Part shown: one piece after another, positions 18,170-24,419 of the stretch
Numbering within the stretch: position 1 is the first letter of the stretch
How the letters are laid out: each line of letters opens with the position of its first letter
Assembly (NCBI RefSeq): GCF_029350975.1
Contig: NZ_JARKMR010000003.1
Location: forward strand, 579,869 to 643,868
Source of the DNA: Maribacter zhoushanensis
GTDB lineage: Bacteria; Bacteroidota; Bacteroidia; Flavobacteriales; Flavobacteriaceae
Reading direction: 5' to 3'
DNA length: 64,000 nt
Notes under the pieces: generated by a model
Told to the model about the DNA's origin: nothing
Databases searched by the model: none
The model's input: the letters and a program-made list of their open reading frames with translations, nothing else
Program-made: the position numbers and the translations under genes

Positions 18170-19567
18170 TTATTGCATCCCATTGGTTTCCAAAGGTTTA
18201 ATTTTCCATGGATTTCGCTGGGTATAACTTGAAATAATTTTGGCAGTATGATAAGAATGTTTTTTTGGGTCTAACATATCTTTTAAATGTTCTAAACTAG
18301 AAACCGATTGGGAGTTGTCTAAAAATCCATATCCTTGATAAACACCATGAAGAATTAAAACAAAACTACGTTCCTCTTTGGTGCGTCCTTTTTCAAAAAG
18401 TACATAATTGTCATTTTCATTGTTGAGATAATCCAAGGCATTTTCAACTTTAAGATTGTATTGTCCTATTTCTTCCTCTCCGGCGCAGATGCCATCACAC
18501 TCGGTATATTCGCCATGGGTACATCTACCCAACTTGCTTTTTAAACCAGTTTGTAACGGGCATAGTCTAAATTTCTCGGTCAGTGCTATCAACCGTTTAA
18601 TAGCATCGCCTCTTTTCAAGAATATTTCGGTGGGGGAGTGCACAAAAGGTCTTCTTTCAATCTTTAGTTGTAGTACCCCTTTTCTGTTTTTTTGAGGTAC
18701 GATATGGTAAGTAACATAACTTTTCTTTTGAATGTAATTAAACGGTGGGTCTAATTTATCGATCAGGTCCGCTTCTCGCAACAAGGCGATTAGTTCGCTG
18801 CCGGTAGGTTCAAAATCTATATGGTAAGTAGCATCGCAAAGTGTAATTTCTTTCTCGCTCGTATTATAGAAATGGCTCAATACCCTTTTTTTAATATCCT
18901 TCGCCTTGCCAACATATGTTACCTCACCCTTCTTATCTTGAAACTTATAAATGCCGGGGGAGTTAGGTAAAGCGTTTAGTTTTTGATAGGCTATGTTTTT
19001 GGGTGCTATACGTTCTTTCTCAACTTTAGGTTCTAAGAATTTAGAGATGACCATTTCGTCATCATCAAGCAAAATCAATCTTTGAAATAGTATGGCAACT
19101 GCGGCATTGTCATCATTTAAATCATTTGATGCTGTGTAGGGAATATTAAGAACACCGCTTAAATAGGGTAGTTCATAACTAGTCATGTTCGGAATCAATT
19201 TCTTCGCTAAGCGTACGGTACATAACTGGGGAGTTTTAAAAGAGTACCCTAAATACTTAAATTCCGATTGCAGGGCGTAATGTAGAAATGATGCGTTATG
19301 CCCTACCAGTATATGATTTTCAAGTTCTTGTAATATAGTATTAGCAACTTCTGAAAAAGTAGGGGCTTTTAAAAGTATGGTATCGGTCAAACCTGTTTTT
19401 TGCTGAATGTAATTTGGCAAACGTTCTTCAGGATTGATATTGGTAGTAAAGATAGGTTCATAATAATCACCCCTAAGTTTGCTTATAGATAGTTGAACAA
19501 TTCTAAGAGGGTTAGGCTTATTACCAAAAGTGGTCATGGAGATAATGGCAAATTTTCTTTCCTTCAT
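18170..19567 (-). CDS. Exonuclease-fold/GIY-YIG fusion nuclease (UvrC/Cho-related) with degenerate exonuclease site
   Basis: A 465-aa protein. Residues 1-170 resemble the DnaQ-type DEDDh exonuclease fold. From about 198 (LPNSPGIYKFQDKKGEVTYVGKA) there is a GIY-YIG nuclease as in UvrC/Cho, with its Arg after the loop (KKRVLSHF) and the catalytic Glu in GSELIALLREADLI. The C-terminal part has a Cys cluster in FRLCPLQTGL...GRCTHGEYTECDGICAG. The exonuclease half has lost its motifs: the first acidic pair DxE reads SMT (FAIISMTTFG) and motif II reads HNASFLHYAL instead of HNAxFD. So only the GIY-YIG half looks catalytic. It is in tandem with the helicase upstream (9-bp gap), suggesting a joint DNA-repair function. 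Confidence 0.8.
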   Translation of the reverse strand: MKERKFAIISMTTFGNKPNPLRIVQLSISKLRGDYYEPIFTTNINPEERLPNYIQQKTGLTDTILLKAPTFSEVANTILQELENHILVGHNASFLHYALQSEFKYLGYSFKTPQLCTVRLAKKLIPNMTSYELPYLSGVLNIPYTASNDLNDDNAAVAILFQRLILLDDDEMVISKFLEPKVEKERIAPKNIAYQKLNALPNSPGIYKFQDKKGEVTYVGKAKDIKKRVLSHFYNTSEKEITLCDATYHIDFEPTGSELIALLREADLIDKLDPPFNYIQKKSYVTYHIVPQKNRKGVLQLKIERRPFVHSPTEIFLKRGDAIKRLIALTEKFRLCPLQTGLKSKLGRCTHGEYTECDGICAGEEEIGQYNLKVENALDYLNNENDNYVLFEKGRTKEERSFVLILHGVYQGYGFLDNSQSVSSLEHLKDMLDPKKHSYHTAKIISSYTQRNPWKIKPLETNGMQ

Positions 19568-19576
19568 ATTTGATAT

Positions 19577-21637
19577 TTAACTGAAATCCATCCCTGAGGA
19601 GAGGTCTATACTATTAGGTTTTGCAGCATCTTTAACTTGCTTAAAATCATAACCAATAGTTTCTTGTTTTACCAATCCGTCAGGTATAGTCGTCAAAAAA
19701 TAAGTTTCCGCAGCATCTTTCTGTTGTTCCATATTGGCGGGAATAGATTTACCGTGAATTGCCGATATAGAAGCGGTATTTCTAGTAATTATCAATCTAT
19801 TCTTAGCACGGGTCAGTGCAACGTAGAGCACTCTACGGTCTTCCTCAATGGCATCTACATCATCTAAAGACCATGCGGAAGGAAATGCTTTAGGTGATAC
19901 ATTTAAAACAATACAAACATCGGCTTCCAATCCTTTTGCAGAATGAATGGTGGAAATAACTACATGGTCTTTTTCTTCATCGGTCTCTAATTGAGTTTCG
20001 CTTAAAACTGGTGCGCCGTTCATTTTTTCGGCATTATCCAATAGTCCTTCACCTATAAACTCACCTAAGCTAGCATAACTATTCGCCAAAAGTTTTAAAA
20101 CAGGGAAATCACCTTTACGCTTCTCGATCCAATCTTTGCGATATCTAAAAGCCAACCCTAAGGACATGGCATCATAGGCAATGTCCACCATTTTACCCAC
20201 TTTGCCTTTCTCTTTTTGAACGGCGTTATAGAGTTCTGCAATTTTGATTCCATCCTTTCCGGGTATGGCACCCTGTAATAAGGTTGGGATGTCGGTTTTG
20301 CCTTCATCCGCAATAATTACCGCCATAATTCTAGAAGCCCTTACTTCACCTATACCTTCCCAAAAAGTCAAGAATCTTACCCAGGCAATTTCATCGTATG
20401 GGTTGTTGACTATTCGCAATAATGAAACCAAATCTTTTATATGGGCGGCCTGTAAAAATTTACGCCCGCCGTAGGTAACGTACGGAATCTTTCTTCTAAT
20501 GAATACCGCTTGCAATGTTTTCGTATAATATTGAGAACGCGATAAAATTAAATGGTCTGCAAACTTGCGGTCCTCATCGGTATAATTTTTTAAGATTTCA
20601 TCGGCTACCCAATTAGCTTCTTGCCATTCATCGCTTACGTTCAATAGCACAGGTATTTCTCCGCTTCCTCTAACAGACTGCAATTGTTTTTTATAATCTA
20701 TAGGCGATTTGTCTAACAACCAATTCGAAATATCCAATATCTCTTGCGTAGAGCGGTAATTTTTTTCAAGCTTATAAACTTCAGAATTGGGTACACGTTC
20801 TTTAAACTGATGTACATTTCTAAAATCTGCACCTCTAAAAGAATAGATAGATTGCGCATCATCACCAACACAGAATAAACTACAGATATCAATGAACGGG
20901 GAAAGCAGTTCCCATTGCAATGGGTTGGTGTCTTGCATTTCATCGACCAACAGATAATCAAGGTCTTGAGATAAAAGCTTTCTAGCTTCTGGATTAGATT
21001 TTAACTGTGTAGACACTACCAGCAATAAATCATCATAATCAAGATAATGTTGTTCCATTTTCTTTTTCTGATATGCCCTTAGTAAAATTTCTACATTAGG
21101 TTTCATGGCGGTTATCTCATACTCGGTATCCTTGTCTTCTTTGCCTTTGTATACTAAAATGCGTATAGATTCGGTCAAATTCTTTTTGGTGTTTCTGGCG
21201 TAAGAATAAATATCTAGCAGTTGCTGAGGTTTAATGCGAAGTTTGCCATATACCTCGCCATGGCTACCAGAAACCATTTTCATTAAACCTAATTGATCAT
21301 CCGGGTCAATAACCGTAAAGTTGGCGGCGCCGAACAGATTAGGGTATTTAATGATTAGTTGGTTACACCAAGAGTGGAAGGTGGCACCGTTGAGTGAACG
21401 CCCATTAGATTGTGGTAAGCTGGCTTTTACACGTTCTACAATTTCATTGGCAGCTTTCTTGGTAAAAGTTAGGATCTGAATCTTTGACGGGTTTGCCCCA
21501 TTTTCTATTAGGTAGGCAGCCCTGGCGATAATGGTGCGTGTTTTTCCCGTACCGGCACCTGCCAAAACCAACAGGTGTTTGCCTGAAAATTCAACTGCTT
21601 TTAATTGTTGCTTGTTTAGTTCCTCTTTTAAACTCAT
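19577..21637 (-). CDS. UvrD/Rep-type superfamily 1 DNA helicase
   Basis: A 686-aa SF1A 3'-5' helicase that unwinds DNA using ATP. Motifs visible: Q-motif LNKQQLKAVEF, Walker A AGAGTGKT at residues 26-33, Walker B LLVDEMQDT, motif III VGDDAQSIYSFRGAD, motif IV LEKNYRST, motif V VVISTIHSAKGLEAD and motif VI VLYVALTRAKNRL. The length is close to UvrD/PcrA. It is the first gene of a two-gene leftward unit with the exonuclease-fold/GIY-YIG gene, which would fit nucleotide excision repair or processing of branched DNA. It may be accessory and not the housekeeping UvrD. Confidence 0.9.
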   Translation of the reverse strand: MSLKEELNKQQLKAVEFSGKHLLVLAGAGTGKTRTIIARAAYLIENGANPSKIQILTFTKKAANEIVERVKASLPQSNGRSLNGATFHSWCNQLIIKYPNLFGAANFTVIDPDDQLGLMKMVSGSHGEVYGKLRIKPQQLLDIYSYARNTKKNLTESIRILVYKGKEDKDTEYEITAMKPNVEILLRAYQKKKMEQHYLDYDDLLLVVSTQLKSNPEARKLLSQDLDYLLVDEMQDTNPLQWELLSPFIDICSLFCVGDDAQSIYSFRGADFRNVHQFKERVPNSEVYKLEKNYRSTQEILDISNWLLDKSPIDYKKQLQSVRGSGEIPVLLNVSDEWQEANWVADEILKNYTDEDRKFADHLILSRSQYYTKTLQAVFIRRKIPYVTYGGRKFLQAAHIKDLVSLLRIVNNPYDEIAWVRFLTFWEGIGEVRASRIMAVIIADEGKTDIPTLLQGAIPGKDGIKIAELYNAVQKEKGKVGKMVDIAYDAMSLGLAFRYRKDWIEKRKGDFPVLKLLANSYASLGEFIGEGLLDNAEKMNGAPVLSETQLETDEEKDHVVISTIHSAKGLEADVCIVLNVSPKAFPSAWSLDDVDAIEEDRRVLYVALTRAKNRLIITRNTASISAIHGKSIPANMEQQKDAAETYFLTTIPDGLVKQETIGYDFKQVKDAAKPNSIDLSSGMDFS

Positions 21638-21922: not shown

Positions 21923-21986
21923 TTATGGGCATTGTTAATAATATTTTCAAATTTACATTAAATTATTTGGAATATATCCTGAAATT

Positions 21987-21999
21987 TGGACAATGTCCA
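21987..21999. promoter_or_regulatory. Palindrome over the start codon of the first gene of the umu cluster
   Basis: TGGACAATGTCCA is a perfect 6-1-6 inverted repeat that contains the ATG at 21993. It could be an operator or a translational hairpin. No known LexA consensus for this group was available to compare. Confidence 0.35.
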
Positions 22000-22271
22000 T
22001 TACAGTATTTAGAAATTATGATATCAAGAGTATAAAAGGTCTTCTTAAAGAGATAGGTCAAGAACGTTATGAGTGTGCTCTAAAAGATTTAGGGCTTTTA
22101 GAGCAAAGACCTATTTCAATGAAAGGGTTCTTCGTAGAATATGAAACAGACACCCAGGACATTTATTTATACTATAGGTACCCCTCTCGCGTCGTATTTA
22201 AGATTTTGCCCGTTTTAGGCTTTTGGCAAGTGCCCCATGATCATTGGGTAAGGGAAAGAAAAGAAAAATAA
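21993..22271 (+). CDS. Hypothetical 92-aa protein upstream of umuDC
   Basis: Reads MSITVFRNYDIKSIKGLLKE at the start and PVLGFWQVPHDHWVRERKEK at the end. It is soluble and rich in aromatic residues in its second half. It lies 10 bp before the UmuD-like gene in the same direction, so it is probably the first gene of a three-gene operon. I do not recognise the family. The context suggests a role in, or regulation of, translesion synthesis. Confidence 0.5.
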   Translation: MSITVFRNYDIKSIKGLLKEIGQERYECALKDLGLLEQRPISMKGFFVEYETDTQDIYLYYRYPSRVVFKILPVLGFWQVPHDHWVRERKEK

Positions 22272-22281
22272 TCGATAGTTT

Positions 22282-22647
22282 ATGATTGATTTAGATAATC
22301 GTTTAATTAAAAAATCTGAGAATAACCATAGGGTCAAAAGTCCTACGCAGACCGGTTTTTCCAGTCCGGCTACGCATTATAGTGAACCTAGAATAGATTT
22401 GAACGAAGTATTGGTAACCAACTCTTCTTCCACATTCTTTATAAGGGTTGCAGATGATGAGTTCAAGGAGCATAATGTGCTTACCAATGATGTGCTCATT
22501 GTAGACAAATCGCTTGCTCCAAAATTAAATCTATTAGTGCTGGCAACTGTAGATGATAGTTTTAAGATCGTACGTATAGATCAAAATGCTACGGAAGTAC
22601 TGAATATATGGGGAGTTATAACCTTTGTAATAAAATCTGTACTATGA
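22282..22647 (+). CDS. umuD: UmuD-like protein with lost protease residues
   Basis: A 121-aa LexA/UmuD-fold (S24) protein. The family track is clear: [35 protein letters not shown], and a final [10 protein letters not shown] matching the UmuD C-terminus. The key positions are changed. The catalytic Ser (Ser60 of E. coli UmuD, GDSM) is Glu60 (DDEF), the catalytic Lys97 is Val97 (FKIVRI), and the Cys24-Gly25 cleavage site reads Thr24-Gly25. About 20 residues between these strands and the final strand are also missing. It cannot self-cleave like UmuD. It overlaps umuC by 4 bp (ATGA), so the pair is still translated together. It may act as a constitutive UmuC partner. Confidence 0.8.
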
Positions 22648-23912
22648 TAGCATTGGTAGACTGCAATAGTTTTTATGCATCTTGCGAACAGGTATTTAGA
22701 CCAGATTTGATAAACAGACCTGTGGTTGTTTTAAGTAATAACGACGGATGTATCATTGCGGCCAATAAAGAAGCAAAGGCGTTAACAGATATTCCTATGT
22801 TTCAGCCCATATTTAAAATCAGGAAATTGTTAGATGCCAATAACGTCACCTATTTTTCTTCTAATTACACCTTGTACAGCGACATGTCTAGAAGAGTGAT
22901 GGATACCTTAATGACATTTTCTCCAAGAGTAGAAGAATATAGTATTGATGAAAGTTGGGTTGATTTGGCATGTTTAAAAATCGATAATTACAATACCATA
23001 GCCCATACCATTAAGAATACGGTTCATAAAAATACGGGAATATCGGTGGGTGTGGGTGTTGCAAAGACAAAATCCTTATCCAAGTTAGCGAATAAATATG
23101 CCAAAAAAATACCCAAGAACAATAATGTTTATGTGGTAGATAGTGAACAGAAAAGACAACATTTGTTATTGCAGCTGCAGGTAAAGGATATTTGGGGAAT
23201 CGGTAAGAAACACGCTATTCGTTTACAGAACAATGGCATACATACCGCATTAGACTTTGCCAATATGCCCGTTGCATGGGTACGAAAAGAAATGACCGTA
23301 ATAGGGGAGCGACTTTGGAGAGAATTAAACAATATTCCCTGTCTGAATTTAGAGACCGAACCAAATGCCAAAAAGGGAATTGGAACGGCTAAATCTTTCG
23401 GGTTTAAACTAACGGACTATTCGTTGATAGAGGAGGCATGTAGTTATTACGTAGCGGAAGTTGCAGATCTATTAAGACAGCAACAAAGCTTGGCATCTCA
23501 AATAGAAATATCGTTACAGACCAATCAACATAGCGCCGTTGATAGGCAGTATCGAAATAGTATTGGCATTCAGTTAGATACACCGACCGATAGTACCGTA
23601 AAACTCACAAAAGAAGCACTTAAAGGGTTAAGGCAGATATTTAGACCAGGCTACAGGTACAAGAAAGTAGGGGTGAACCTTACCCAATTGGTACATCAAA
23701 AAGAGGTGCAGACCAACCTTTTCCATAATCCGCATAAAAGCGAAAGCAGTACCATCACCAATGTTATAGATACGCTGAACGGAAAGTTCGGGAAGAACAA
23801 GATAAAAGTGGCAAGCGTAGGAAACCGAAGTAAGGAATGGGCATTGATAAAAGAACATCGTAGTCCTAGGTATACTACCCAATGGGGAGAGTTAATGACC
23901 ATTGGCAAATAA
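22644..23912 (+). CDS. umuC: Y-family DNA polymerase V catalytic subunit
   Basis: A 422-aa error-prone translesion polymerase. The start at 22644 overlaps the umuD stop as ATGA and gives the canonical N-terminus [20 protein letters not shown]. The frame is open further upstream, but that part overlaps UmuD. Catalytic acids are visible: Asp6 in ALVDCNSFY, and the pair in [12 protein letters not shown]. The steric/finger region ([15 protein letters not shown]), the helix-hairpin-helix ([18 protein letters not shown]) and a little-finger domain (about 240-350) follow. The length matches UmuC. Coupling to a UmuD-like protein without protease residues is unusual. Confidence 0.95.
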
Positions 23913-23996: not shown

Positions 23997-24419
23997 ATGT
24001 TTCAATTAACCTACCAATCTAAAATATCACCAGAACTGACGATAGGCGAAATTGAGAATATCCTTGTAGACGCACGAAAAAGAAATAATACGCGCGAAAT
24101 AACCGGATGCCTCGTGTACTTTGAAGAAAGTATCGTGCAGATTTTAGAAGGTAAAAAAGAGGATGTTATGGATTTGTTCGGTAAAATTGAAAATGACCAT
24201 AGGCACCATACTTTAGACCTCTTGTGGGAAGGTCCGTCAAGACAAAGATATTTTCCAAATTGGGATATGGCGCTATATGCACCGGCTGATGATTCTGAAT
24301 ATTATGATTCAAAGGAGACCTTTATTACCAATATGACCTTGCTCGCCGATCTTTCCAAAAAAACAACTTCTGCCTTGTTATCCTTTTGGTCTACTGTTCG
24401 CAAGAATTTGAATGGGTAA
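23997..24419 (+). CDS. BLUF-domain blue-light sensor, second copy
   Basis: A 140-aa stand-alone BLUF protein (FAD-binding blue-light sensor) starting MFQLTYQSKISPELTIGEIE. Photocycle residues are present: Tyr6, Asn in KRNNTREITG, Gln in SIVQILEGK, and Trp-Asp-Met in NWDMALY. It resembles the BLUF protein at 11569-12009 in length but is diverged in sequence. It lies 84 bp behind umuC in the same direction, just before the att-like tRNA fragment. The position beside a lesion-bypass polymerase is suggestive but does not prove a shared role. Confidence 0.9.
   Translation: MFQLTYQSKISPELTIGEIENILVDARKRNNTREITGCLVYFEESIVQILEGKKEDVMDLFGKIENDHRHHTLDLLWEGPSRQRYFPNWDMALYAPADDSEYYDSKETFITNMTLLADLSKKTTSALLSFWSTVRKNLNG

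Follow-up and report, generated by a model that had tools for sequence, protein, structure and literature searches.

The window, a stretch of 64,000 nucleotides from Maribacter zhoushanensis (contig NZ_JARKMR010000003.1), holds a short umuD homolog that overlaps the umuC gene behind it and is preceded by a small open reading frame and two repressor boxes (Table 1). Residues 22 to 103 of this UmuD align without a gap (HMMER) with residues 22 to 103 of Escherichia coli UmuD (PDB 8gmt), so that the numbering is exact and the substitutions are C24T, which leaves a T24-G25 bond, S60E, and K97V. The original prediction, made from the letters of the DNA, had read all three correctly, and the loss of some 20 residues that it placed before the last strand comes to about 18 (121 residues vs 139 in the UmuD of 8gmt). 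Between positions 98 and 128, only 10 to 16 residues are left in the truncated class to which the window protein belongs, compared with 29 in E. coli and 30 in the canonical flavobacterial UmuDs (36 aligned), homologous proteins which keep the A-G or C-G bond, the Ser, and the Lys in 36/36.

Table 1. Features of the umuDC locus, numbered along the window
Feature	Position	Strand	Remark
GGA-N5-TCC box 1 (GGAATATATCC)	21969..21979	+	motif from PMC8565304
GGA-N5-TCC box 2 (GGACAATGTCC)	21988..21998	+	19 bp from box 1; shares bases with the 92-aa ORF start codon
92-aa ORF between boxes and umuD	21993..22271	+	no clear family
umuD homolog, protease-dead, internal loss before the last strand	22282..22647	+	121 aa
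Thr24-Gly25 codons (acc-ggt) at the former cleavage bond	22351..22356	+	HMMER alignment to E. coli UmuD
Glu60 codon (gag), replaces catalytic Ser60	22459..22461	+	HMMER alignment to E. coli UmuD
Val97 codon (gta), replaces catalytic Lys97	22570..22572	+	HMMER alignment to E. coli UmuD
umuC, intact Y-family motifs	22644..23912	+	422 aa; start overlaps the umuD stop (ATGA)

The protein matches the Pfam S24 family (PF00717) at 26.7 bits, above the cut-off of 23.3, and the similarity is therefore not due to chance. The NCBIfam UmuD model, which retrieves 25/25 members of set A2 at E <= 0.001, aligns with the window protein over profile positions 2-81 of 115 (E 4e-22, 78.3 bits, below the cut-off of 110), and it matches non-cleavable UmuDs under the name "autoproteolytic subunit." Beyond the one-to-one stretch, the window UmuD shares with E. 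coli UmuD/UmuD' of Pol V the arm sequence GFxSPA, the position directly before umuC, and, in the model described below, the LexA/UmuD' core fold; it differs in its basic tail and in the losses listed above. The class lacks the Ser-Lys dyad and the Cys/Ala-Gly bond, and the window protein lacks a score above the curated cut-off, whereas the predicted core fold and the operon with umuC are present. Given the loss of the dyad, RecA-stimulated self-cleavage is not expected, and a protein with these residues cannot cut itself by the known chemistry.

UmuC appears intact, as had been predicted. It keeps the D6, YSIDE, and QTNLF motifs, which we take to be elements of the active site and of clamp binding, and its IMS domains are in place (PF00817, 1.4e-35; PF11799, 7.5e-20; PF13438, 5.1e-16); with the UmuC model, it scores 381 bits, under the cut-off of 431.

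Conservation of the truncated class

A scan of genome contigs identified 11 relatives in Maribacter, Cellulophaga, Zobellia, and Pseudozobellia, with 63 to 83% identity and the same architecture. The truncated class occurs in 32 of 299 Flavobacteriaceae genomes, at bit scores of 90 to 232, the next match being at 74. When 395 genomes from across the phylum were scanned, only three Flavobacteriaceae showed the truncated form among the matches listed, and the next matches, at 101.5 bits or less, have longer frames among the best-scoring ones listed. Within the GTDB genus, 12 of 36 genomes carry the class, one has a weak match of canonical length, and 23 have no match, which makes the umuDC operon an accessory one. 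When the window UmuD was compared with plasmids by tblastn, all matches in the best 5000 records were below 60% identity.

The class was examined at 42 loci, namely, the window, the 11 named relatives, and 30 of the 31 other genomes of the 299-genome scan, L075 being dropped as coming from the same genome as L013. None of the 42 UmuDs has Ser60 together with Lys97 (8 have Ser only, 3 have Lys only, and 31 have neither), and all 42 carry T-G at the cleavage site. Among the residues at position 60 are Glu (12 loci), Gly (9), Ser (8), and Ala (6); among those at position 97 are Ile (13), Val (11), Leu (5), and Lys (3). Whether Glu60/Val97 proteins form a conserved clade with UmuC had been proposed as a check; the clade is conserved, but these two residues are not. 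Both positions drift, nothing but the absence of the pair is shared throughout, and Glu60/Val97 was rejected as a signature of the class.

Of the 66 pairs formed by 12 Maribacter-type sequences, 33 were unsaturated, and their median dN/dS was 0.10. Median dN was 0.05 at residues 24 to 56 vs 0.35 at residues 57 to 70, around the former Ser60; constraint is strongest on the nearly invariant arm that follows residue 24 and weakest on the former Ser60 loop. This is the pattern expected if the protease was lost and a binding function was kept. The missing catalytic residues and the missing internal sequence could also be taken as marks of a decaying pseudogene, a reading to which we give practically no credence in view of the low dN/dS, of a frame that is open in every truncated-class locus read, of the common architecture of the 11 named relatives, and of the recurrence of the class in 32 of the family genomes sampled. 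The same conserved clade and its purifying selection rule out that one copy is simply decaying; normal Ser and Lys in close relatives, which had been named as the sign of decay, were found together in none of the 42 loci.

The umuC gene lies directly 3' of umuD in 43/43 truncated-class loci (one of them from the duplicate genome), and this arrangement, with the ATGA overlap in the window, bears out the predicted coupling of the two genes. In a quick tree, the UmuC partners of the class form one clade (40 rows, SH-aLRT 100), with YSIDE in 40/40 rows and QxxL[FL] in 35/40; this tree has thinned canonical rows and leaves out L074, L075, and L092, whose UmuC is cut by a contig end, as well as L181 and L182, which were removed by a filter, and those loci of family f24 (see below) that have no umuC. 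Judged by these comparisons, the UmuD-UmuC pair is real, conserved, and under selection. The canonical flavobacterial loci (27: L210-L229, L105-L110, and L188) have umuC directly upstream of umuD in 16 cases, downstream in 4, and non-adjacent in 7, so that their usual order, umuC and then umuD, is the reverse of that in the dead class.

Promoter boxes and the S24 repressor

According to the available part of a study of the Bacteroidetes SOS response, S24 repressors act in place of LexA in this phylum and bind GGA-N5-TCC (Flavobacteriaceae) or CTAA-N5-TTAG, and the umuDC operon is already among the predicted targets (PMC8565304). The window operon has a box at its promoter and a repressor in its genome. 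Tandem boxes with the exact 19-bp spacing occur at three places in the source genome, at the umuDC operon, at a Y-family polymerase, and at a radical-SAM gene. The repressor gene (L104:5256-6023) has three GGA boxes upstream and encodes 255 aa with HTH and S24 domains, in which Ala-Gly, Ser, and Lys are intact by eye; no other PF00717 protein besides UmuD was found in the genome. The boxes, the self-boxed S24 repressor, and the Y-family polymerase and radical-SAM targets all resemble the LexA-like regulon described earlier, in whose available text a UmuD without catalytic residues is not mentioned (PMC8565304).

Within the class, 37/42 promoters have a GGA box and 31/42 have two in tandem at a spacing of 15-25 bp, compared with 5.6% and 0.05%, respectively, of dinucleotide-shuffled promoters. 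The scan ran from -380 to +15 of the start codon in the dead class and from -350 to +120 of the ORF opening in canonical loci, which were scanned with longer flanks at the first gene of the operon because umuC usually comes first there. Among the 27 canonical flavobacterial loci, a GGA box occurs in 3 and a CTAA box in another one, L221; the Fisher test (p 1e-11) was run with 2/27, without the distant GGA box of L211. GGA boxes also lie close to the start of L108 and L109, two canonical umuDC operons with the dyad, and are thus not confined to dead UmuDs.

The box also tracks the repressor. A repressor match at 54 to 99% identity was found in 11/11 box-bearing genomes tested, of which 8 are among the 42 and 3 (G689, G708, and G703) have tandem boxes just upstream of umuD; in one box-bearing genome, G144, the match was read through a TAA. 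A close match was absent from 5/5 genomes with box-less class loci (G125, G294, G091, G193, and G112), which gave no match or one at 27-31% identity, the G112 assembly being only 64% complete, and the exact 19-bp tandem box was not found in G125, G294, and G193, the genomes scanned for it. Taken together, the shuffled promoters and the co-occurrence in these 16 genomes rule out boxes by chance. We favor the view that the umuDC operon would be under SOS control through the GGA-N5-TCC repressor. The original prediction had left the pair either always active or controlled in another way; the tandem SOS-repressor boxes speak for the latter, and their presence at 37/42 promoters speaks against the former.

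Four of the genomes with a box-less dead umuDC (G125, G294, G193, and G091) also hold a canonical cleavable UmuD (L105, L106, L107, and L110), with no umuC in the 5-9 kb read around it; these UmuDs are possible partners or inhibitors. LexA-looking proteins were seen in three Flavobacteriaceae genomes (L314, L315, and L316, from G111, G243, and G102). The one tested, L316, has a LexA DNA-binding domain and reaches 145.6 bits with TIGR00498 LexA (cut-off 110.95), in contrast to complete Bacteroidetes genomes, in which no LexA homolog was found according to the available part of the earlier report (PMC8565304).

Relatives and possible role of an uncleaved UmuD

UmuDs without the dyad also exist, at full length, in two other Bacteroidota families, designated f4 and f24. 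S60A/K97R is present in 9/9 f4 loci (L150-L158); of the 20 f24 loci, 12 have A at position 60 and 17 have R at position 97, most being S60A with K97R or K97C. T-G occupies the cleavage bond in 71/71 dyad-less UmuDs aligned (truncated class, f4, and f24) and A-G or C-G in 46/46 dyad-bearing ones, numbers that are not prevalences because the rows were chosen for high score: the f4 and f24 loci were the top scorers of the phylum scan (9/10 matched f4 and 20/32 matched f24 genomes, counted by eye, plus 10 other loci). This strict link in 117 aligned proteins suggests that T-G could serve as a one-residue marker for non-cleavable UmuDs. A further dead class was not seen, by eye, in 7 genomes with intermediate UmuD-model scores that the A1 search had missed or scored low, which hold 3 dyad-bearing A-G UmuDs and 4 repressors whose S24 site is intact and which have an N-terminal domain.

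A same-strand umuC accompanies 8/9 f4 and 16/20 f24 loci; it is on the opposite strand in one f4 locus, and none was found in the 7 kb read around each of 4/20 f24 loci (L171, L175, L176, and L177). The CTAA-N5-TTAG box is present in 9/9 f4 loci, which would place f4 in the Sphingobacteriaceae or a neighboring family, and in 0/20 f24 loci, where the GGA box occurs in 2/20. On the UmuC tree, the truncated flavobacterial class, f4, and f24 each form one clade, and a single origin is not rejected, either for all three (AU p 0.46) or for the flavobacterial class with f4 (AU p 0.54). We tentatively propose, with somewhat less than even confidence, that the Bacteroidota hold a broad and possibly ancient branch of Pol V without UmuD self-cleavage, marked by T-G and the missing dyad in these three groups, in which the uncut tail would have become a lasting component of the mutasome and LexA-like S24 repressors would switch on two or more of the three groups through GGA or CTAA boxes.

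An AF2 model of the window UmuD has a pLDDT of 74, about 87-90 over residues 51-100; a model from 12 rows (pLDDT 41.5) was set aside. It superimposes on 8gmt with Z 11.6 and rmsd 2.3 over 80 residues and on 1ay9 with Z 11.4 and rmsd 2.7 over 90 residues, so that a UmuD' core fold with the last strand kept is predicted with fair confidence. The tail consists of 23 residues before the Thr in 37/42 loci, and the window umuD has no alternative start codon near residue 24. The median net charge of the tail is +3 vs -2 in canonical flavobacterial UmuDs and its GRAVY -1.1 vs +0.4. Such a basic, hydrophilic tail has probably ceased to dock in the former active site and may run along UmuC or the DNA. 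In a model of Pol V, as given in the available part of its description, one UmuD' carries the UmuC C-terminus, and the second has its N-terminal arm next to the UmuC active site (PMC11791011). The YTTQW-EL motif at the UmuC C-terminus is mostly retained in the truncated class.

We consider it likely that the window UmuD is a structural, uncleavable subunit of a Pol V formed with the adjacent UmuC and that its SOS control is exerted by transcription, because YTTQW-EL is largely kept, a UmuD' core is predicted, and the arm is nearly invariant. DNA damage would lead the XRE-S24 repressor, with its intact Ala-Gly, Ser, and Lys, to cut itself; its cleavage would free the tandem GGA-N5-TCC boxes and allow the umuDC operon to be expressed, and the uncut UmuD dimer would bind UmuC directly. 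The second, RecA-triggered switch (UmuD to UmuD') would be gone, and SOS control would be transcriptional. In some marine flavobacteria, damage-triggered expression is apparently the main control left.

For E. coli, the available part of the relevant article states that UV mutagenesis is much lower with the uncleavable S60A form of UmuD and that the full-length protein prevents mutagenesis (PMC3901139), so that activity of the uncut form would have to be a derived property. Either the flavobacterial tail would have evolved compatibility with synthesis or UmuD would be a restraint. A third option overlooked in the original prediction, and the naive one from E. coli S60A (PMC3901139), would be a pair that is always off. 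UmuD would then be a permanent inhibitor or checkpoint form that holds UmuC non-mutagenic, and the tail length kept in 37/42 loci would fit selection on the full-length form. We regard this as unlikely, given that the tail lacks the hydrophobic, acidic character of that of cleavable flavobacterial UmuDs and that the strongest constraint, at residues 24 to 56, includes the arm placed beside the UmuC active site (PMC11791011); an SOS-induced inhibitor overlapping the gene of its own polymerase would, moreover, be an awkward design.

That the tail is cut off in trans, whether by a different S24 protein (the repressor or, in genomes that have one, a canonical UmuD) or by a housekeeping protease, seems quite improbable to us. 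E. coli UmuD can be cut intermolecularly, and at least 6 of the 32 class-bearing family genomes also carry a dyad-bearing UmuD (L105-L110); against this stand the source genome, where the repressor is the only candidate of the PF00717 family found, and the contrast between A-G/C-G and T-G, according to which the site changed along with the loss of the dyad. Least probable of these readings is an always-active mutator, a constitutive Pol V without a switch: the loss of cleavage does strip one layer of control, but the SOS boxes and their association with the repressor argue otherwise, and RecA activation of the polymerase itself may remain. RecA-stimulated cleavage of UmuD counts as the switch that defines Pol V, and if a lineage that lacks it is conserved and under selection, Pol V can do without this switch. 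The dead class would set apart the roles of UmuD as timer and as structural subunit and would offer natural mutants for testing what the tail and cleavage do.

In the open-licence literature, no report of a protease-dead UmuD clade was found by title or abstract start. The HumD family (phage P1 UmuD'-like; NF051876) is a UmuD relative, with which the window UmuD scores 56.8 bits vs a cut-off of 120. P1 HumD is a naturally tail-less UmuD', and the dead class differs from it by keeping the full 23-residue tail. By eye, 15 viral UmuDs keep Ser and Lys.

Neighboring genes

The 92-aa ORF between the boxes and umuD is conserved in Maribacter-type genomes and is probably cotranscribed with umuD. It accompanies umuD in 10/43 loci searched (Maribacter, Cellulophaga, and G236), so that the system does not depend on it. 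The idea that it encodes a subunit resembling UmuD or YolD found no support in the profile matches, which were limited to PSP1 (E 0.023) and phrog_9803 (E 0.0097). A second copy of the ORF, with one TAA inside, lies in the same genome (G000:C13:39357-39584), and distant relatives occur in 3/199 family genomes.

Divergent from the umuDC operon, at 18170-21637 on the minus strand, are genes for a UvrD-like helicase and for a protein of the RNaseT/GIY-YIG type; the SOS genes predicted in the available part of the regulon study include a GIY-YIG exonuclease and, for several species, UvrD (PMC8565304). Directly 3' of umuC, at 23997-24419, lies a gene for a protein with a BLUF blue-light sensor domain.
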